From positions 1-34,609 of the IMG/VR virus record IMGVR_UViG_3300022745_000110: a stretch of DNA of 34,609 nucleotides; one strand, 5' to 3'. Shown here in pieces: positions 2,438 to 34,609 of the stretch. A program made the translations under genes and the position numbers. Position 1 is the first letter of the stretch; each line of letters opens with the position of its first letter. Origin of the DNA: a virus. The notes under the pieces are model-generated. The model made no database searches and was not told the DNA's origin. It saw only the letters and a program-made list of their open reading frames with translations.

Positions 2438-2445
2438 GGAGCGTG

Positions 2446-4221
2446 ATGGATAATGTGACCGCACTTAACCCATCGCGTGACCTCTCAGAGTTCTTCGAAT
2501 TTATGTATGGTGACCAAACGGGTTATGCGTACGTTCCGGTCAAGCATCCAGAGACAGAAGAATGGACGTCGGCTTTCTTTAACTGGCCGACAGAAAAGAC
2601 TGAACTGGTCGCGCATGTATTAGGACATACAAAGCAGAATGAAGTTTACTTCGGCCCTGCCCTGTATACAGCGCCTCATGCAACAAAAGAATACGTCAAG
2701 GGTACCTACATGCTGTGGGTTGATTTCGATGGGAATGCCCCGGAGAATTATAACATTACAGGAGTTGCGGTCCCTTCTCTTATCGTTCAGTCTAGTGATA
2801 AAGGTCATGAGCATGTTTACTGGAAACTCGACTATTTCGAAGTTGATTCCGATAACATCGAACGTGCTAATCGTGCATTGGCTTACTCACTCAAAGCCGA
2901 TACATCTGGATGGGACGTCACTCAGGTCTTACGTCCTCCTGGGACCAGTAATCACAAACGTAACCGCCCTGTAGCAATAAGTCAGCAATGGTCCGGTAGT
3001 ATTAGTGTAGATATTTTTGACAACCTACCCCATATCCAAGAGGTTGTTAAAGATATCGATCTAGGGTCTGTCCCTGATGCACTTGATGTTATTGCTAAAT
3101 TCGTATGGGACCAAGAAGCATTTGCCTTCTTCCGTAAGAAGGAAATTCCGACTGGTTCTCGTTCGTCGGCAATGATGCGTCTCGGCTACTACTGCGCAGA
3201 AATGGGTATGTCGGATGAAGAAGCATTTAGTATTCTTGACAATGCCGATCAACGCTGGAAGAAGTTCGTTAAGCGTAGTGACCGTAAACGGCGTCTGCTC
3301 GATATTATTAACAGGGCGCGTCTTAAGTTTCCGCTTGACCCCCAAGAAATCATTATTGACGAATTTCCCGTTTATCACTACCAGGATTTTCTTGACTCAG
3401 ACATTACTGTGGAATGGATCTTACCAGGATTTCTACAGCGTGGTGGTTCGGTACTTCTTTCGGGACCGGCTGGTACTGGTAAGTCTCAGTTAACCCTACA
3501 GTTCGCTATTCACATGGCGCTTGGCAAAGATTTTCTTGGCTGGAAAATCGACAAGTGCTACAAGATGGCTTTCTTTAGTCTCGAAATGGGTCATGCTGAA
3601 CTTAAATATTTCCTAACACTGATGGATGAAGTGCTGACGCCTGAGGAACGAGTTAAACTTAACGAGAATTTTATCTGGCTGCCATTGGGTGAGGCATTAC
3701 TACTTGCATCGCCAGGCGAACAAACTAAGATTCAGAGGTTTATCGATGAACACGCCCCTGACGGTATCGTATTTGACTCCCTCTCGGTTACAACGGAAGA
3801 TGAACTCGCGTCAGAAGTTGCGACTAAAGCAATCTTTATGTTCGTCAACAAGTTGCGGAACCAGCACGACATGTTTGTTTGGTTCATCCACCACAACCGT
3901 AAGGCACAAACTAACAACAAAAAGCCCAACAAACTCTCAGATGTGTTTGGTTCGTATATTATTACTAGCCAGCCCACGGCGATCGTTAACCTTTGGCCGA
4001 CTGCTAAAGGAATCGAAGTTACAGGGCTTAAGATTCGTCTTGCCCCGCCGTTCGCGTTTAAAATCTCTCGATCAGAGCATCTGACATTCGAGAAGATTGA
4101 GCAGTCAGATGTTTCACCAGAGGATCTTAAAGCGATGGTAGCCAATCTCGGAGGGGGTGACGATAGTAATGGTAATGATGACGCATCAACCGGGGAAGGT
4201 AATTCTTTCCTTGGCTTCTAG
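2446..4221 (+). CDS. Primase-helicase (PrimPol-like domain fused to RecA-fold helicase)
   Basis: 591 aa from ATG 2446, with TAGGGAG about 5 nt upstream; a GTG 3 nt earlier is possible. The N-terminal part looks like an archaeo-eukaryotic primase (PrimPol) domain: VDFD at about 92-95 (metal-binding DxD), SSDKGHEHVYWK at about 117-128 (the SxxGxH-type motif) and RPPGTSNHK at about 163-171. A helical linker follows (about 225-290). The C-terminal half is a RepA/DnaB-like RecA ATPase: Walker A GPAGTGKS at about 340-347, Walker B GIVFDSLSV near 440, and a sensor strand MFVWFIHHNRK. The last 25 residues are Gly/Asp/Asn-rich. It would unwind the fork and lay primers for the polymerase encoded next; the two genes overlap by about 50 nt. 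The primase call rests on motifs seen by eye, while the ATPase call is firm. Confidence 0.85.
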   Translation: MDNVTALNPSRDLSEFFEFMYGDQTGYAYVPVKHPETEEWTSAFFNWPTEKTELVAHVLGHTKQNEVYFGPALYTAPHATKEYVKGTYMLWVDFDGNAPENYNITGVAVPSLIVQSSDKGHEHVYWKLDYFEVDSDNIERANRALAYSLKADTSGWDVTQVLRPPGTSNHKRNRPVAISQQWSGSISVDIFDNLPHIQEVVKDIDLGSVPDALDVIAKFVWDQEAFAFFRKKEIPTGSRSSAMMRLGYYCAEMGMSDEEAFSILDNADQRWKKFVKRSDRKRRLLDIINRARLKFPLDPQEIIIDEFPVYHYQDFLDSDITVEWILPGFLQRGGSVLLSGPAGTGKSQLTLQFAIHMALGKDFLGWKIDKCYKMAFFSLEMGHAELKYFLTLMDEVLTPEERVKLNENFIWLPLGEALLLASPGEQTKIQRFIDEHAPDGIVFDSLSVTTEDELASEVATKAIFMFVNKLRNQHDMFVWFIHHNRKAQTNNKKPNKLSDVFGSYIITSQPTAIVNLWPTAKGIEVTGLKIRLAPPFAFKISRSEHLTFEKIEQSDVSPEDLKAMVANLGGGDDSNGNDDASTGEGNSFLGF

Positions 4222-26944: not shown

Positions 26945-28365
26945 TATGCAACCTCATCCAGAGTCATAAAAGATCCGGCGAGCATGGTCGCTGTACCAGC
27001 CGCAGAAGGAGTAAAATCGTAAACTAAGTTACCATCGGCCGAAGGAATAATAAATCCTTCTAATGTCAACTCCAACTGTGTAGTAACACCGGCTACAGCA
27101 GGAATAATAGTTTGAGGCGAGGCTGGTAATACTGCAACCGACCCGGCCCTAGAAAATGCAGTAGCATTAGTGGCCGTAAAAGATTGCACCGATCCTGCCG
27201 TGAGAGTCGGGTATGCCAGTCGTGACTCAAAGGCTACTGTAACTGCTGACACGGTATAGTAGATAACAAACTTAAATCGGTATGTTCTACCTGATTTAAC
27301 TGGCTGGCTAGCAAATCCAGTAGGTACTACGAAAGTACCTGTAGTTGCAGCAGCCGAGTTAGTAGTACACCGCTGAAACACCGTACCCGGGATACGTCTA
27401 GCATTAGATGCAACACCAGCACTAAAGAAAGCACCAGCCGCAGTAGCGTACATATCTCCGGCTGCCGGAGTAGTTTTAGCGGTACCTGATGGCATGTTGA
27501 GTGAAGCAATAGATGCAGTACAGGCTGCTAAGGCTGCTACAATACCAGAAAGTGTAAATCCACCATTAAATGTTTTAGCACCAGTCAGTGTCTCAGTACC
27601 AGCCAGGTGACACACCAGAGTATCAGTTGCTTTAGCCGCTAGATCAGTGACTAGGTTAGCAACGTCTGCCTCAGTAATAGCCAACATGGTTTTTACTTGA
27701 GCAGTAGTTAGATCCGCAGCATTTGCAGTACCAGCAGTATTGTTACCTTTAAGTGTATTAGCAGGCATCTGAGCAGCGAGAGCATTCGTAATCCCATTAG
27801 CAAGTAATGAAATAGTACGATCCGCTGTGAGATCACCACCACCGAGAACAGGTGACGTTGTGTTGATTAACCTAGCAGCAATTGCTTTGGCTGCTAAGTC
27901 AGTTACTAAGTTAGTAACGCCACTCTCAGGAATACCAGTAAAATTGGCCGGTACCACATCAATACTTGGGTTACCAGCAACACCGTCTGGATTACTAATA
28001 CTGACTTTTGTGGATCCAGCGGCAAGGGATCGTGCAGCACTAACATTGAGTGCGGTACGAACCATAATGCCATTAGATCCAGGATCGGCTACACCAGATC
28101 CTCCACCACCAGAACCCCATGCAACATCATAGTCAGCACTAGAATTTTTAAGTAGTGCTTGACCAGCAGTACCACCAGCAGGGACACCCTGAATCTTACG
28201 ACTAGTGTACCCGTCATGTGAGTGGTCACCAGGACTAGCCTGATTATGGTTAGTCCCTAGCGTATGATGCTGTGCAAACTGAGCAGAATCAAGATCCGAC
28301 TTAGCGTGCATTTTAGCGGAGTCAGCAGGCGTAAGTAATGCCTGCTTTTTCTCTATCTCAGCCAT
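26944..28365 (-). CDS. Tail fibre/receptor-binding protein
   Basis: 473 aa. The N-terminal DLDSAQFAQHHTLGTNHNQASPGDHSHDGYTSRKIQG has the HxH-type metal-binding motif of trimeric fibre stalks (DHSHDG). It is followed by AGGTAGQALLKNSSADYDVAWG, common in actinophage tail proteins, Ala/Thr-rich shaft repeats (VTNLVTDLAAKA twice, about residues 148 and 236) and a C-terminal strand-rich domain (RTYRFKFVIYYTVSAVTVAFESRLAYPTLTAGSVQSF). Probably binds the host surface. The start overlaps the previous stop (TAATG). Confidence 0.75.
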   Translation of the reverse strand: MAEIEKKQALLTPADSAKMHAKSDLDSAQFAQHHTLGTNHNQASPGDHSHDGYTSRKIQGVPAGGTAGQALLKNSSADYDVAWGSGGGGSGVADPGSNGIMVRTALNVSAARSLAAGSTKVSISNPDGVAGNPSIDVVPANFTGIPESGVTNLVTDLAAKAIAARLINTTSPVLGGGDLTADRTISLLANGITNALAAQMPANTLKGNNTAGTANAADLTTAQVKTMLAITEADVANLVTDLAAKATDTLVCHLAGTETLTGAKTFNGGFTLSGIVAALAACTASIASLNMPSGTAKTTPAAGDMYATAAGAFFSAGVASNARRIPGTVFQRCTTNSAAATTGTFVVPTGFASQPVKSGRTYRFKFVIYYTVSAVTVAFESRLAYPTLTAGSVQSFTATNATAFSRAGSVAVLPASPQTIIPAVAGVTTQLELTLEGFIIPSADGNLVYDFTPSAAGTATMLAGSFMTLDEVA

Positions 28366-29678
28366 TAAAGTTCCGCATCTAAAGCAAAGAACTTTGTAGC
28401 CCCAGCAGCAATGCTCATAAGTGTAGCATTACCCGAAGCAAGTCCCGAAGCAACAGTTCCAGTAATACGAATAAGAGCAATTCCTGCACCTGGGCCTGCG
28501 ATTGCAGGAGAACCATAGACTGTCGGGGCTGCGGAAGATGCTTGTCCAACGTTAGTTGCAGAAGCGAAAAGAATATCAGTATTTGCCGAGGTTGAGAGCG
28601 CCGGTAATGCTCTAAGAGGCGTAGACAAGGAAATAAGTACAACTGCGGCTGTCGTTGATGGGGCCAAACCGTTGGCAACGTAAACAGCACCACCAGCGTC
28701 ACCGGTCCACCTTATATAGTAACGCTGACAACGAAGTAAAGTATCGGCGACAGGAATACGCTCGACACTAGTTGCTACAGGGCCTGCCTCAATCTGCATA
28801 TCCTCGATCTGTAGCGTACCAGTAGTACCGTTAGTAGCGTTAAAGGCTCGGAATAACTGAATCTCAAGGAAATCGTTGTTATCGGTACCTAACGTCTTGC
28901 CGGAAATACTCGGCACCGTAAAAGTAGCGCTAAATCGAGTGCGAGTAGTCGTAGCAGTTTGAGTACCGCCCTGGGCCGTAGGACCAACATCAGCCGAAGG
29001 AGAACCAGTAGTACCGAAGTTTTGACGACTACGGAACTGGAAATCAATACTACCAGCGGAAGCCGTAAGATAGGCACTAACAGTTACTTGCTGTCCTGCG
29101 AATCGCTGAACACCCTCGATGCGCTGACTCCAAGTAGAGTCCGTGGTACCAACAACAGATCGGTTCCAGTCCACACGATACTTAGCCTGATCCACGATAG
29201 CGCCAAGAGTAAGGGCAGTCCTGGTAAAAACGTTAGTGGCACCAGTTCCTGAAACACCGACCCAGCGATCACAAGTATAACCAGTTTGGCCGCCAGTAAG
29301 TGTAACGGAAGTACCGCGCTGCCAGATATCAAATGAACCGTTGATGAACCCATTTTTAAATGAGGTACTAACCGGCGGGTTAACGGTACCATTAAAGACA
29401 TTCGTAGTATCAAACGTCTTATTCTGAATAGTATCCAGCAGTACGGACTGAGTGATGACAACCCAAGACGTACCGTTATACACTAGAATCTTACTAGTAT
29501 CAGTCTCGAAAATCGACAGACCAGTATAAGGGGCGCTAGGGCGAGTACCACTAGTACAAACTTGGAAGTTAGCCGCTAGATCAATAGCATCAAAATTAGC
29601 ACTAAGATCAGTGTCCACATTTACTGTATCAGTAGTGGCCGGCTTTCGAAGTTTAAGTCGAGAGGTAAGTGATGCCAT
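28365..29678 (-). CDS. Tail fibre with glycan-binding domain
   Basis: 437 aa from ATG 29678, which overlaps the small terminase stop (TAATG); a longer TTG form was not used. Start MASLTSRLKLRKPATTDTVNVDTDLSANFDAIDLA and RPSAPYTGLSIFETDTSKILVYNGTSWV are standard N-termini of actinophage tail fibres. They are followed by the jelly-roll type domain FKNGFINGSFDIWQRGTSVTLTGGQTGYTCDRW, found in many phage carbohydrate-binding fibres. Position between the small and large terminase is unusual for a fibre gene. Confidence 0.75.
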   Translation of the reverse strand: MASLTSRLKLRKPATTDTVNVDTDLSANFDAIDLAANFQVCTSGTRPSAPYTGLSIFETDTSKILVYNGTSWVVITQSVLLDTIQNKTFDTTNVFNGTVNPPVSTSFKNGFINGSFDIWQRGTSVTLTGGQTGYTCDRWVGVSGTGATNVFTRTALTLGAIVDQAKYRVDWNRSVVGTTDSTWSQRIEGVQRFAGQQVTVSAYLTASAGSIDFQFRSRQNFGTTGSPSADVGPTAQGGTQTATTTRTRFSATFTVPSISGKTLGTDNNDFLEIQLFRAFNATNGTTGTLQIEDMQIEAGPVATSVERIPVADTLLRCQRYYIRWTGDAGGAVYVANGLAPSTTAAVVLISLSTPLRALPALSTSANTDILFASATNVGQASSAAPTVYGSPAIAGPGAGIALIRITGTVASGLASGNATLMSIAAGATKFFALDAEL

Positions 29679-30430
29679 TACAAAACCCAATCAGGTGCTT
29701 TTGCTACAGGGGGCTCTATAGCAACAGTAACGGGCATTGATCTAGACTGTCCGGCCCCGGTCAATTCGCCTAAATCTGCGGCAATAGCCATGAGCGTATC
29801 CGCGTCATGAACATGCCGTTGTAATGTTTCTAGAATCTTAATCATGAGGAATTCAATATTAACCTCACCGGCAGATTTACCGGACCAGCGCCCAATCATT
29901 TCGTAATAGAGTTTGATCGAGTTTAGGTCGCCTCGCTCAACATTCTGCATAAGAGCGATATGAGCCGAGTGAGTGTGGTCACCTAGTAAAGATTCTGCCC
30001 GGTGACGTACATAAGATTGGAACTGAGGGTTCTTAAGCCAAGCGTTGTACTGAGCGGTGCTAACACCTAACTCGTTAAGTTTGGCTTTGGTGGCCCGCTT
30101 ATCCGAGAAGTCCATAATAACATTAATGGCACTTAACTGGATGGGCGTTAATCCCCGACCGGGAATCTGATCGTTAGGGTCAATCCCTCGGTTTTTTAAG
30201 GCGATTGTGACGGAGTAGTCATCATCAGGTGTATCCTGACTAAGCGAAACGGCAATCGCTACAGGGGAGTTAGGCCAGTCCGGTTCCCGTACCAACTTAG
30301 CGTGGTGGTCCGTCAGGTATCGAAAGATTACCTCGGACCCTGGCAACACACCGTTAGCCAGGTACTCCTGCTCACAAAAGTCAACAATCACTCGCTCAAC
30401 TGGAGTTAGTCGTCTAGGGGCGGTAATCAT
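29678..30430 (-). CDS. Terminase small subunit-like DNA-binding protein
   Basis: 250 aa. The central region LTPIQLSAINVIMDFSDKRATKAKLNELGVSTAQYNAWLKNPQFQSYVRHRAESLLGDHTHSAHIALMQNVERGDLNSIKLYYEMIGRW is the phBC6A51-type HTH plus helices of small terminases. The N-terminal part (LTPVERVIVDFCEQEYLANGVLPGSEVIFRYL) may be a second HTH. The small subunit recognises the packaging site on the DNA. It is encoded second in the late operon. Two CTACAGGGG copies, 29704 and 30259, lie inside it. Confidence 0.75.
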   Translation of the reverse strand: MITAPRRLTPVERVIVDFCEQEYLANGVLPGSEVIFRYLTDHHAKLVREPDWPNSPVAIAVSLSQDTPDDDYSVTIALKNRGIDPNDQIPGRGLTPIQLSAINVIMDFSDKRATKAKLNELGVSTAQYNAWLKNPQFQSYVRHRAESLLGDHTHSAHIALMQNVERGDLNSIKLYYEMIGRWSGKSAGEVNIEFLMIKILETLQRHVHDADTLMAIAADLGELTGAGQSRSMPVTVAIEPPVAKAPDWVL

Positions 30431-30987
30431 AATGCTTCCCCGTAGGTACTCAACCCATCCGGTGTAAGGGAATACAACCAGTCCAGTCGATCCGGCTCAA
30501 TTCCAGCGATAATCAATGCTTGGCTAATCTGCGACGGGAAGGATCTGCTAGATCCCGTCTCAAGCGCCCTAAGCGAGTTCGGGTGGACGCACAATAACCG
30601 GCAGAAGCCCATAGCCGAATCGCCAAGAGGGCTAACAGCCTTACGCCAATTAATAAATGCCCTGCGGCCAGTACCAGTTGGCGTGAAATCACCGTTAACC
30701 CACTCCTGTAGCAAACGTTGGTCACGCTGCCAAATCTCATACAGGGGCTGAATATCTCGCCTAGGTACAGCAAAACCAGCAACCGTAGATAATTGCGTAA
30801 GCAACTTATCCGGGATGCTGGCATACATACCTTGTTCAGTCCTGAGTACAACCATACGAGATACTCGTGCCCTAGTCGCTAGACTGACTTGTGTGAGATT
30901 TAGTTGACGCCGTACGATCCTAACTGGATTCTCGTTAGGGTTCATCCAGTTAATAGGTGGCGCTTCCGAAGGGTCTGTAATGAGCAT
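30427..30987 (-). CDS. Tandem HTH (XRE-like) protein, first late gene
   Basis: 186 aa. The N-terminal half IVRRQLNLTQVSLATRARVSRMVVLRTEQGMYASIPDKLLTQLS is a Cro/CI-type HTH; the second half FINWRKAVSPLGDSAMGFCRLLCVHPNSLRALETGSSRSFPSQISQALIIAGI looks like a second one. It is the first gene of the late operon and lacks a clear ribbosome binding site; the leader has a small hairpin, TAACC-TTTC-GGTTA (30997-31010 on +, GAAA loop on -). A regulator of the divergent promoters is the obvious guess. It could also bind DNA at the packaging site. Confidence 0.65.
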   Translation of the reverse strand: MLITDPSEAPPINWMNPNENPVRIVRRQLNLTQVSLATRARVSRMVVLRTEQGMYASIPDKLLTQLSTVAGFAVPRRDIQPLYEIWQRDQRLLQEWVNGDFTPTGTGRRAFINWRKAVSPLGDSAMGFCRLLCVHPNSLRALETGSSRSFPSQISQALIIAGIEPDRLDWLYSLTPDGLSTYGEAL

Positions 30988-31824: not shown

Positions 31825-32490
31825 ATGTCTGACTACACGAAGGGTACCACTGAGGGCCTTGAGGGTTTCGCCGCCGTCGCCGGAGCCATGCTTCTGTCTG
31901 ACGTTCTTCCTAAGTGGGAAGAGGACGTCAAGGCCCTGCACACTAAGGCCGACACGGTTAGTGACTCTGCCCTTGTCGAACTTGCCAACACGTCCGGTAA
32001 CGATGGTGACAAGGCTAACGCTAAGTTGCTCGGTGATCTGAAGGCGAAGATCAAGGAGGTTACTGACGCGCTTCGGACTAGCCTTGCCCCCGGGACCGCT
32101 GCGCAGATTGACAAGAAGGCTGTCGCGGAGCGGGTGCGCGCTTACCGTACGCAACTCGATGCCTCCCAGACTATGGGAGTCCCTGCCGAGTGGCTCGCGG
32201 CTCAGGGTTACACCGCCGCCACCGCCGGTAAGGTTACCCGTCCGCGTGTCGCCGCTATCAATCTCAGCGGTTCGGTCACCGGCACGGCTAAGAACTTCAC
32301 GGAGGCCGGTAACCTCATCAAGGCTCAGACCGGAACCGCCGTTGACGTCAACGTCATCAAGGCGAAGGTTGAGGAGACCGCCGGTAAGTCTATCGCAGAC
32401 CTCACCGACAACGTTTCGGTTACTCTCGTGATCGACGCCGAGAAGAACCAGAGTGTGACCTTGGAGGTTATCCCCAAGGTTGCCGAGTAA
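31825..32490 (+). CDS. Unknown GC-rich protein with its own promoter and terminator
   Basis: 221 aa from ATG 31825 with AGGAG (31811-31815). N-terminal half helical (GLEGFAAVAGAMLLSDVLPKWEEDVKALHTKAD), middle KAKIKEVTDALRTSLAPGTAAQIDKKAVAERVRAYRTQ, C-terminal half with strands (NVSVTLVIDAEKNQSVTLEVIPKVAE). No domain recognised. The leucine codons are CTT, CTC, CTG and TTG only; TTA and CTA, common elsewhere in the window, are absent. The set of a good promoter, its own terminator and GC-rich codons suggests strong expression. It may be a host-takeover or DNA-associated protein. Unknown function. Confidence 0.7.
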   Translation: MSDYTKGTTEGLEGFAAVAGAMLLSDVLPKWEEDVKALHTKADTVSDSALVELANTSGNDGDKANAKLLGDLKAKIKEVTDALRTSLAPGTAAQIDKKAVAERVRAYRTQLDASQTMGVPAEWLAAQGYTAATAGKVTRPRVAAINLSGSVTGTAKNFTEAGNLIKAQTGTAVDVNVIKAKVEETAGKSIADLTDNVSVTLVIDAEKNQSVTLEVIPKVAE

Positions 32491-32496
32491 CTAAAT

Positions 32497-32536
32497 AAAA
32501 ATACCCCCTAGGGCTAATGCCCTAGGGGGTATTTTT
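32497..32536. terminator. Bidirectional terminator sharing arms with 7021-7060
   Basis: Arms AAAAATACCCCCTAGGGC (32497-32514) and GCCCTAGGGGGTATTTTT (32519-32536), loop TAAT. The A-run and T-run make it work in both directions. The outer 14 bases are the same as in the terminator at 7021-7060. It lies just behind the stop of the 221-aa gene. Confidence 0.92.
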
Positions 32537-32625
32537 ATGTCCCGGCTAACTTGGCGTGGAAAACGCGCATGGAAATTAGTACCATGCGTACCAACTAAAA
32601 AATTACAATCAGTACCATAGTTCTA

Positions 32626-33125: not shown

Positions 33126-33157
33126 GGTAGGATACTACTCTAGAGTAGTATCCTACC
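33126..33157. repeat. 32-bp perfect palindrome
   Basis: GGTAGGATACTACTCT (33126-33141) followed directly by its exact complement (33142-33157), no loop. No T-run follows, so it is not a standard terminator. It opens the gene-free stretch 33073-33482. It may be an operator for a dimer, a resolution or attachment site, or part of an origin. Confidence 0.85.
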
Positions 33158-33159
33158 TT

Positions 33160-33470
33160 CGCCAAGATCGTCCGCACCATGCATAACCGCAGGTCAGACC
33201 CCATGCATACCCCACCCAAAACCCAGTACCCACGCTACCCCTTGCATACCCCCCATACATAAAGCCTACATACAGCCTGCATAACGCTCAATCGGAGCAT
33301 CGTCGCAGGTGAGGCCCGTTACCCCGTTATGCATCATCGGTGGGTAGCGGCACGCATAACGGGTGCATAACGCTCTGACCTGCACCTATGCACCCACCCG
33401 CTATGCACCCAAAATAATGCGATTACATAAGCACATTAACCTATCAACCCCGTTACCTATCAACCTAATT
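33160..33470. repeat. Repeat-rich gene-free region, candidate replication origin
   Basis: TGCATAAC is present at 33180, 33278, 33364 and, reversed, at 33326 (GTTATGCA). Variants are TGCATACC/TGCATAC (33204, 33243), CGCATAAC (33353) and TGCATAG reversed (33386, 33401). CCCGTTATGC (33323-33332) and GCATAACGGG (33354-33363) form an inverted repeat of 10 bp. GCAGGTCAGA (33189-33198) and TCTGACCTGC (33374-33383) form another, at the edges. TGCATAACGCTC appears twice. C/A-rich strands with few G (33210-33270). No coding frame is convincing. The layout is like iterons of a replication origin. A regulatory centre is the alternative. Confidence 0.5.
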
Positions 33471-33482
33471 GGAGGCCTTGCT

Positions 33483-33608
33483 ATGTCTTACCGTTGGTGG
33501 CACCCTAGCACTAAGTCCGGCCGGATTATCCAGATCATTGTCCGAGGAGTATTCCTCCTCGTCGTGGTAACGGCCGTCATGCTACTGTCCAGTATTGTCC
33601 CTAACTAA
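33483..33608 (+). CDS. Small membrane protein
   Basis: 41 aa from ATG 33483 with GGAGG (33471-33475). MSYRWWHPSTKSGRIIQII is amphipathic and basic; VRGVFLLVVVTAVMLLSSIVPN is one transmembrane helix. A longer form that starts in the repeat region has no ribosome binding site. Function unknown. Confidence 0.6.
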   Translation: MSYRWWHPSTKSGRIIQIIVRGVFLLVVVTAVMLLSSIVPN

Positions 33609-33621
33609 TCGGAGTCTAGTC

Positions 33622-34215
33622 ATGTCCACTACTGCCAACAATAAGCCAGTGTATTTTAAGATCACAAAGTCTGGTCGTAAATCTAAATACAATGATGACT
33701 TTGTATGGCCTGCCCACGGAAAGTGGGCACCCCCTGTAGCGCCTAAGTTGTGCTCGTCAGGCTACCATCTATTCACATTTGAGCACATCTGGACATATAT
33801 CCAGCACGGTACCGAACTATGGGTAGCCGATGGTAAAGGTATGTATGTCGAATCAGAAGATAAGATTGCTTTTGAGCAGGCTAGACTAGTCCGCCGAGTG
33901 CCTGGCTTTACTCCGGCTAATCTCGCATTGGCAGCCCAAGATATTGCTGATTCGGTAGAGTATCTATCTGCTACTAATGCTGCTTATTCTGCTAGGGCTG
34001 CTGCTTTGGCTGCTACTAATGCTAGGGCTGTTTATTCTGCTACTAATGCTGCTTATTCTGCTAGGGCTGCTCATAACCATGCTACTAATGCTAGGGCTGA
34101 TGCTGTTTATTCTGCTACTAATGCTGCTTATTCTGCTAGGGCTGATGCTAATGCTGCTAGGATGGACCAGAAAAATAAGAATACAGGATTTCTTCGCAAC
34201 AGGATTGGACTCTAA
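33622..34215 (+). CDS. DUF7666-like protein with alanine-rich repeats
   Basis: 197 aa from ATG 33622 (GGAG about 8 nt upstream). The first 110 residues are an ordered domain: YFKITKSGRKSKYNDDFVWP, LCSSGYHLFTFEHIWTYI, TELWVADGKGMYVESEDKIAFEQARLVRRVPGFT. It resembles DUF7666-type phage proteins with a C-x-x-G-Y/F-H motif (C53-G56-H58 approx.). Residues about 116-180 are repeats of SATNAAYSARA with A, R, D or H between. The DNA repeat unit is close to exact in three copies. The tail is basic (MDQKNKNTGFLRNRIGL). Function unknown; the repeat would form a helix or polar stalk. Confidence 0.6.
   Translation: MSTTANNKPVYFKITKSGRKSKYNDDFVWPAHGKWAPPVAPKLCSSGYHLFTFEHIWTYIQHGTELWVADGKGMYVESEDKIAFEQARLVRRVPGFTPANLALAAQDIADSVEYLSATNAAYSARAAALAATNARAVYSATNAAYSARAAHNHATNARADAVYSATNAAYSARADANAARMDQKNKNTGFLRNRIGL
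33966..34146 (+). repeat. In-frame DNA repeat in the alanine-rich gene
   Basis: A unit of about 36 bp starting TCTGCTACTAATGCTGCTTA and ending GCTAGGGCTG occurs at 33967-34001, 34036-34070 and 34111-34145. Shorter units GCTACTAATGCTAGGGCTG lie between, at 34012-34030 and 34081-34099. All are in frame (3n), so the number of copies can change by slippage without breaking the gene. Confidence 0.85.
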
Positions 34216-34217
34216 TC

Positions 34218-34538
34218 ATGCCACAGCGTCTTATCATCAATCCAACACTCCATGCTCGCGGCCGTATTGCACCCCCTGTAGTGCATTGGTTTATTGAGGG
34301 CATCAGTACCGCTTCATTTACTATTGGTCCCGATGATACTGTCGTTAGCAACCTGGGCCGAGTGCATCCTAGTATGCGCAAAGAAATAGACCGTATCGGA
34401 GTACAGATCCAGGATGCTTTCTCAGCGCTAGGTAATGGAAGCGCTAGCAAGGCTATTAGTGTTCTTATCGATGAGGGCATCCTAGTAGTGCGTGATTATG
34501 ATGACCAGCCGACTGATTATGAGGACTACCATGACTAA
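34218..34538 (+). CDS. Unknown small acidic-tailed protein
   Basis: 106 aa from ATG 34218. Strand-rich N-terminus (PQRLIINPTLHARGRIAPPVVHWFIEGISTASFTIGPDDTVVSNLG), then helices (PSMRKEIDRIGVQIQDAFSAL; SASKAISVLIDEGILVV) and an acidic end (RDYDDQPTDYEDYHD). The second half may be a DNA-binding or oligomer helix pair. It carries CTACAGGGG on the - strand (34272-34281). It overlaps the next gene by 8 nt. Unknown function. Confidence 0.6.
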   Translation: MPQRLIINPTLHARGRIAPPVVHWFIEGISTASFTIGPDDTVVSNLGRVHPSMRKEIDRIGVQIQDAFSALGNGSASKAISVLIDEGILVVRDYDDQPTDYEDYHD

Positions 34539-34609
34539 GGAAACGCCTACACTCGCTAAGATTATTGACGTCATCAAGCGAAGTCCGGCTGGAATTACTC
34601 AGCGCGAGT
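34531..34609 (+). CDS. Partial gene, start of an HTH-like protein
   Basis: Starts ATG 34531, overlapping the preceding stop, and runs out of the window: MTKETPTLAKIIDVIKRSPAGITQRE. The helix IIDVIKRSP followed by GITQRE is a typical start of a winged-helix DNA-binding domain, but 26 residues are too few to be sure. Confidence 0.45.
   Translation, partial: MTKETPTLAKIIDVIKRSPAGITQRE

Follow-up and report, generated by a model that had tools for sequence, protein, structure and literature searches.

A non-coding repeat array interleaved with a widespread 18-bp element in an uncultured Jasmine-like phage

Near the right end of an uncultured viral contig lies a stretch of about 310 bp that is crowded with short repeats, which raises the question of what is assembled or controlled there. 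The window analyzed here is the whole of IMG/VR virus record IMGVR_UViG_3300022745_000110, a 34,609-bp contig without end repeats. A preliminary description, made from its letters alone, had proposed that positions 33160–33470 form an iteron-type replication origin or control center.

The contig and its repeat array

The portal protein of the contig is 35–37% identical to those of Arthrobacter phage Jasmine, Microbacterium phage Shocker, and Cellulosimicrobium phage DS1, and 44–47% identical to those of metagenomic phages of 39–47 kb. Judged from its sequence, the contig is an uncultured phage of the Jasmine/Shocker kind, the isolated relatives of which infect Actinobacteria. Comparison with relatives, G005 among them, shows that about 13 kb is absent between its right and left ends. 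Rightward early genes occupy 31.2–34.6 kb and 0–7 kb, with leftward structural genes between them; the early set includes a Sak4-like protein, SSB, a primase-helicase, and a family-A polymerase. The reading frames of the primase-helicase and the polymerase overlap by 65 bp in different frames (4157–4221), as they do in Jasminevirus records, and three tRNA genes (Leu-TAA, Gln-TTG, Lys-TTT) lie within the early genes at 872–2233. The 221-aa early gene upstream of the array occupies the position of an Lsr2-like gene in Jasmine; no relatives of its product were found in IMG/VR. The segment that follows it, 32408–32588, is rich in hairpins that are probably terminators 3′ of this gene. It gave sub-threshold matches to a His leader and a trpB motif, and these were the only matches when the repeat region was tested against RNA families. 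The product of 28365–29690 proved to be a tail fiber rather than the terminase. The features of the locus are collected in Table 1.

Table 1. Positions of the array, its elements, and the neighboring or related genes in the window
Feature	Position	Strand	Remarks
Primase-helicase	2443..4221	+	Weak RepB_primase match and AAA_25; phrog_3123
Terminase small subunit (TerS)	29678..30430	-	2.7 kb from repeat array
HTH protein	30427..30987	-	Kept beside TerS in relatives
221-aa early gene upstream of array	31825..32490	+	Weak similarity to DS1 early gene (E 1.3e-4, small set)
Perfect 32-bp palindrome	33126..33157	.	Just 5′ of array; RNA fold z -5.7
Array of nine TGCATA-type sites	33180..33407	.	Non-coding stretch of ~230 bases
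Element copy 1, GTCTGACCTGCGGTTATG	33182..33199	-	25.2 bits; 2 mismatches to CTCTGACCTGCGGTTTTG
Element copy 2, GCCTCACCTGCGACGATG	33298..33315	-	Degenerate; 14.3 bits, third best in window
Element copy 3, CTCTGACCTGCACCTATG	33373..33390	+	22.5 bits, second best in window
Leader before first ORF	33408..33482	+	Mildly AT-richer (55–58% AT); two ACCTATCAACC repeats
41-codon ORF, first after array	33483..33608	+	Membrane-like; good ribosome site (GGAGG)
ORF start with HTH-like N-terminus (MTKETPTLAKIIDVIKRSPAGITQRE...)	34531..34609	+	Truncated by window end; candidate iteron-binding protein

The repeats reported in the preliminary description are borne out. Of the five copies of TGCATAAC in the window, four belong to the array, at 33180(+), 33278(+), 33326–33333(−), and 33364(+). 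With the one-base variants, two copies of TGCATACC and one each of CGCATAAC, TGCATAGC, and TGCATAGG, the TGCATA-type sites reach nine, the additional ones lying at 33204(+), 33243(+), 33353(+, CGCATAAC), 33385–33392(−, TGCATAGG), and 33400–33407(−). Within 33160–33470, there are 8 copies of TGCATA where 0.54 are expected and 4 copies of TGCATAAC where 0.03 are expected, and none of 2000 local dinucleotide shuffles reached either count. Among 310-bp windows of the contig, the array ties with the tandem-repeat gene at ~34 kb for the highest 6-mer count. In that gene, the ORF at 33622–34215, repeats of the ATNAAYSARA type are present at 33977–34160, with AGCATTAG occurring six times in 310 bp; this repeat is protein-level and distinct from the TGCATA array, and the ORF has a weak tail-fiber PHROG match. 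A blastn search of the right arm against phage records returned low-complexity matches in the repeat gene only.

The inverted repeats are also real, pairing 33323–33332 with 33354–33363 (10/10), 33361–33372 with 33399–33410 (11/12), and 33180–33198 with 33374–33392 (16/19), as is the strand bias toward C and A (C 113, A 87, T 58, and G 53 of 311 bases). All six frames hold stops across the array and the nearest start is at 33483, in agreement with the earlier statement that the region holds no convincing gene. The preliminary description did not mention the 32-bp palindrome or the three copies of an 18-bp element described below.

The proposal of an iteron-type origin fares less uniformly. Iteron origins are known from plasmids and temperate phages, including P1, lambdoid phages, and RSF1010. 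Like them, the window has a non-coding array of short repeats, an HTH gene nearby in its relatives, and a primase-helicase with RSF1010-like domains. However, regular, helically phased spacing is lacking: successive sites are 24, 39, 35, 50, 25, 11, 23, and 15 bp apart, and their orientation is mixed (6 sites + and 3 sites −). Nor is there an AT-rich unwinding segment in the array region, where 60-bp steps contain 38–58% AT. These properties argue against a classic iteron origin, and the array is a candidate only. That no obvious initiator is encoded in the window was stated correctly; the best candidate is the truncated HTH-like ORF. The suggested GC-skew check proved uninformative, as the skew near the array tracks gene direction.

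An 18-bp element and its spread

Three copies of a conserved 18-bp element with the consensus CTCTGACCTGCGGTTTTG are woven into the TGCATA array. An 18-position matrix with a maximum of 29.1 bits was built from 19 relatives, with the window excluded. The matrix's top three sites of the whole window all fall in the array, and the next-best site scores 9.4 bits. Copy 1 and the adjoining iteron GTTATGCA share six bases, the last of the former and the first of the latter, so that the sequence reads GTCTGACCTGCG and then GTTATGCA.

The element is found far beyond the relatives of this phage. The sequence CTCTGACCTGCGRNTTTG matches at least 120 IMG/VR stretches, and the exact 18-mer occurs in at least 117 stretches of a bacterial genome collection against ~7–8 by chance (for a stated 257 billion bases); the titles of the bacterial matches listed are mostly from Actinomycetota. 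Short-query BLAST returned 741–928 phage records, mostly Mycobacterium, Gordonia, and Streptomyces phages, and 156 plasmids, mostly of Streptomyces and Arthrobacter relatives, whereas the same type of search gave no match in 5,426 E. coli genomes. When 60 rows spread over the phage records were sampled, 45 copies proved to be no more than 200 bp from a genome end, against 0.66 expected within 350 bp, although many rows are related phages and the independent units are lineages rather than rows. Individual copies are found after the last HNH gene of Mycobacterium phage Tweety, before the small terminase of Corynebacterium phage phi673, twice at the right end of Mycobacterium phage Finemlucis, and, in Taj, 12 bp away from the tRNA-like core of an attP next to the integrase. 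The element is also found ~400 bp from repL, and in Arthrobacter plasmids it precedes an integrase/recombinase trio. In Gordonia phage Rosalind, a CACGT array of the kind described as parS (PMC7157519) precedes parA, and the element is at its edge.

Of 90 genes that flank the element, those that could be classified are most often integrases, terminase subunits (small and large), HNH nucleases, and AAA_25 primase-helicases; the family of the window's own primase-helicase accounts for 3 of the 90. The longest arrays at the element adjoin D5-type, DUF3987, and AAA_25 helicases and ParB. Repeat arrays accompany 13 of 88 viral element sites and 24 of 106 sites in genome contigs, as compared to 1 of 86 and 4 of 105 control sites located 1–1.5 kb away. 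Of 229 element sites outside the window group, 111 (about half) overlap ORFs that were called permissively, so that some of the exact matches may lack a function.

The element apparently has not been described so far. Its 12-base core had no match in the literature searched, and a study of actinobacterial prophage origins does not describe a conserved 18-bp element (PMC7157519). The overlapping 12-mer GACCTGCGGTTT is contained in the Northern probe for the small RNA ncRv12659 of the M. tuberculosis prophage phiRv2, from a region close to the integrase and att site (PMC3861185). The same paper proposed a 14-nt repeat upstream of phiRv1 and phiRv2 genes as a repressor site; its sequence is given only in a figure (PMC3861185).

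Counterpart regions in relatives

Counterpart loci were gathered from relatives via the portal protein and alignment of the large terminase, without use of the repeats. In many relatives, the non-coding DNA on the early side of TerS and its HTH neighbor combines a strong hairpin with a short-repeat cluster. The repeat word differs among them: TTGACA/TGACAA in G005 and L031, CCACTTA in G009 and L074, ACGTGTAA in L081, CAAGTAG in L083, ATTCTCA in L097, and ACTTTGACA in L073. The 6-mer or 7-mer counts exceed those of dinucleotide shuffles (p ≤ 0.01) in five of six arrays, those of L031, L073, L081, L083, and L097. The element core CTCTGACCTGCG, with at most one mismatch, is present in the arrays of all these relatives. 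Exact copies of the core number 10, at 9 distinct loci, against 0.25 expected in 2.1 Mb of sequence. At up to one mismatch, the core occurs in the early-side flank of 17 of the 25 relatives with at least 2.5 kb of such flank, at 18 sites against 0.58 expected, and at 1 site against 1.45 expected in the remaining 330 kb of the same contigs; expected counts throughout are rough, related sequences are not independent, and L031 and L033 are near-duplicates. Thus, when the region is looked for in related phages, as the preliminary description had advised, its place and build recur.

In the relatives, a winged-helix gene usually follows the array, and the protein encoded beside the array has 167–227 aa. 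Of nine such downstream proteins tested, seven match HTH or winged-helix families of Pfam at values below 0.001, with slight mutual similarity. Eight of the nine have either a match of this kind or membership of a family with a winged-helix-like modeled N-terminus. In the model of this G005 family, the N-terminus has a pLDDT of 73–87 over residues 11–60, while the mean pLDDT of 64 denotes low overall confidence; the downstream protein of L076 is ~29% identical to the G005 protein. A similar protein follows a CCCTAGG array in DS1. The repeat words and the adjacent winged-helix protein may diverge together. The candidate in the window is the truncated HTH-like ORF, which three small genes separate from the array. 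In G005, a leftward 458-aa protein (L055 2469–3845) that by eye resembles an FAD-dependent oxidoreductase lies between the HTH gene and the repeat region; the window has no counterpart of it.

Possible functions of the array

By its sequence, the segment 33126–33480 has the makeup of a non-coding, nucleoprotein-type site, in which a palindrome is followed by nine TGCATA-type sites and three interleaved elements. A role in control or assembly is well supported, and in relatives the same order recurs at the same position: hairpin, phage-specific repeats, conserved core, and then a winged-helix gene. That the repeats are neutral or arose by chance is very improbable; their irregular spacing would fit this view, but the shuffle tests, the matrix scores, and the recurrence in relatives contradict it. 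Proteins probably assemble at the array, as they would at a replication origin or at a genome-end site.

We tentatively favor replication initiation over genome-end processing. In this reading, a winged-helix protein that is specific to the phage and encoded immediately downstream would recognize the TGCATA words, and the element would be recognized by a factor that many mobile elements of Actinobacteria have in common, probably a host protein that bends DNA or shapes its architecture. Once bound, these proteins may open the DNA or load the phage primase-helicase, which would make the array the site of replication initiation at the head of the early operon, near the physical end of the genome. 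The choice of replication over genome-end processing is a tentative inference; it is favored by the winged-helix gene that adjoins the array in relatives and by the helicase, RepL, and ParB genes that neighbor the element elsewhere, the family of the window's primase-helicase among them. However, an origin would not account for the position of most phage copies of the element, at no more than 200 bp from cos ends, or for those copies that adjoin attP. In the window itself, the HTH-like ORF is incomplete and at a distance from the array, and the primase-helicase is in the other arm.

The alternative, which we regard as nearly as likely, is that the palindrome and array mark the edge of the direct terminal repeat (DTR), at which terminase would load and concatemers would be cut. 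A packaging protein would then occupy the TGCATA words and a shared accessory factor the element, in the manner of IHF, which assists at lambda cosB. For T7-type end repeats (SRL and SRR), the literature searched on terminal repeats yielded nothing useful. Of all repeat clusters in the genomes of the Arthrobacter phages Jasmine, Brad, Adat, and Casserole, the one immediately beyond the DTR ranks first or joint first in strength, and a 10-bp hairpin next to it has the terminus of the DTR within its loop. These Jasminevirus genomes are related to the window and podovirus-type, they share its order of early gene, hairpin, short-repeat array, and early genes, and the palindrome at 33126–33157 is the positional counterpart of their DTR-edge hairpin. 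Their repeat words are different, however (TATCCAT/CTATCCTA), and the element is absent from their arrays; moreover, their DTR is known, whereas the window is a fragment without end repeats. In Shocker, the ends of which are defined, an element-like site is ~0.5 kb from the DTR edge, which also speaks against this reading.

The concentration of element copies at phage genome ends likewise argues for a genome-end site. The cos regions of Tweety, Finemlucis, phi673, and the metagenomic phages L156, L174, and L208 have the same element, often as inverted pairs. The three metagenomic phages, which share TGCATA words with the window and also favor this reading, combine an inverted element pair with 5–7 of these words between the HNH and small-terminase genes, which is a cos layout. 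In contrast, the window array is not between HNH and TerS genes, the sole HNH match found being at 1363–1791. In 6 of 20 relatives, against 0.87 expected, the early-side end of the contig is no more than 1 kb away from the element, but repeats and hairpins may themselves cause contig breaks. The adjacent winged-helix gene and the primase-helicase and ParB neighbors, which replication initiation would accommodate, are left unexplained by a genome-end site.

Control of early transcription, with the repeats as operators through which the downstream winged-helix regulator represses or activates the early operon, is unlikely. In its favor, the array heads the early operon, relatives encode a DNA-binding protein beside the sites, and the proposed phiRv1/phiRv2 repressor site comes from the study whose probe holds 12 element bases (PMC3861185). 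On the other hand, the element recurs at cos and attP, and no strong promoter is visible where an operator should act: at a threshold of 4-of-6, no sigma-70-type promoter was found in 33160–33482, and in the counterpart regions such promoters do not rise above chance (10/12 matches in 2 of 13, against 0.7 expected). A simple array of sigma-70 promoters was rejected on the same counts.

A broader proposal, which remains speculative and which we consider rather doubtful, would accommodate these varied locations. In enterobacteria, IHF is used together with site-specific partners. By analogy, CTCTGACCTGCGGTTTTG could be the site of a conserved actinobacterial DNA-architectural protein with an IHF-like role at cos, attP, parS, and origins, to which each mobile element adds its own repeats; the window array would be one such pairing. 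The Rosalind parS array, representing parABS prophages, resembles the window in having the element at the edge of a short-repeat array, and differs in that its CACGT words precede parA, whereas neither parA nor parB is near the window array. Hundreds of actinobacterial phages and plasmids that are otherwise unrelated retain the element at the places where DNA is cut, joined, partitioned, or replicated, and this spread points to a common factor that apparently has not been named so far. It also offers a handle on the origins and termini of uncultured actinobacterial phages. Separately, several unrelated phages (loci L149, L178, L180, L205, and L227) carry inverted element pairs 10–40 bp apart that are capable of forming hairpins.
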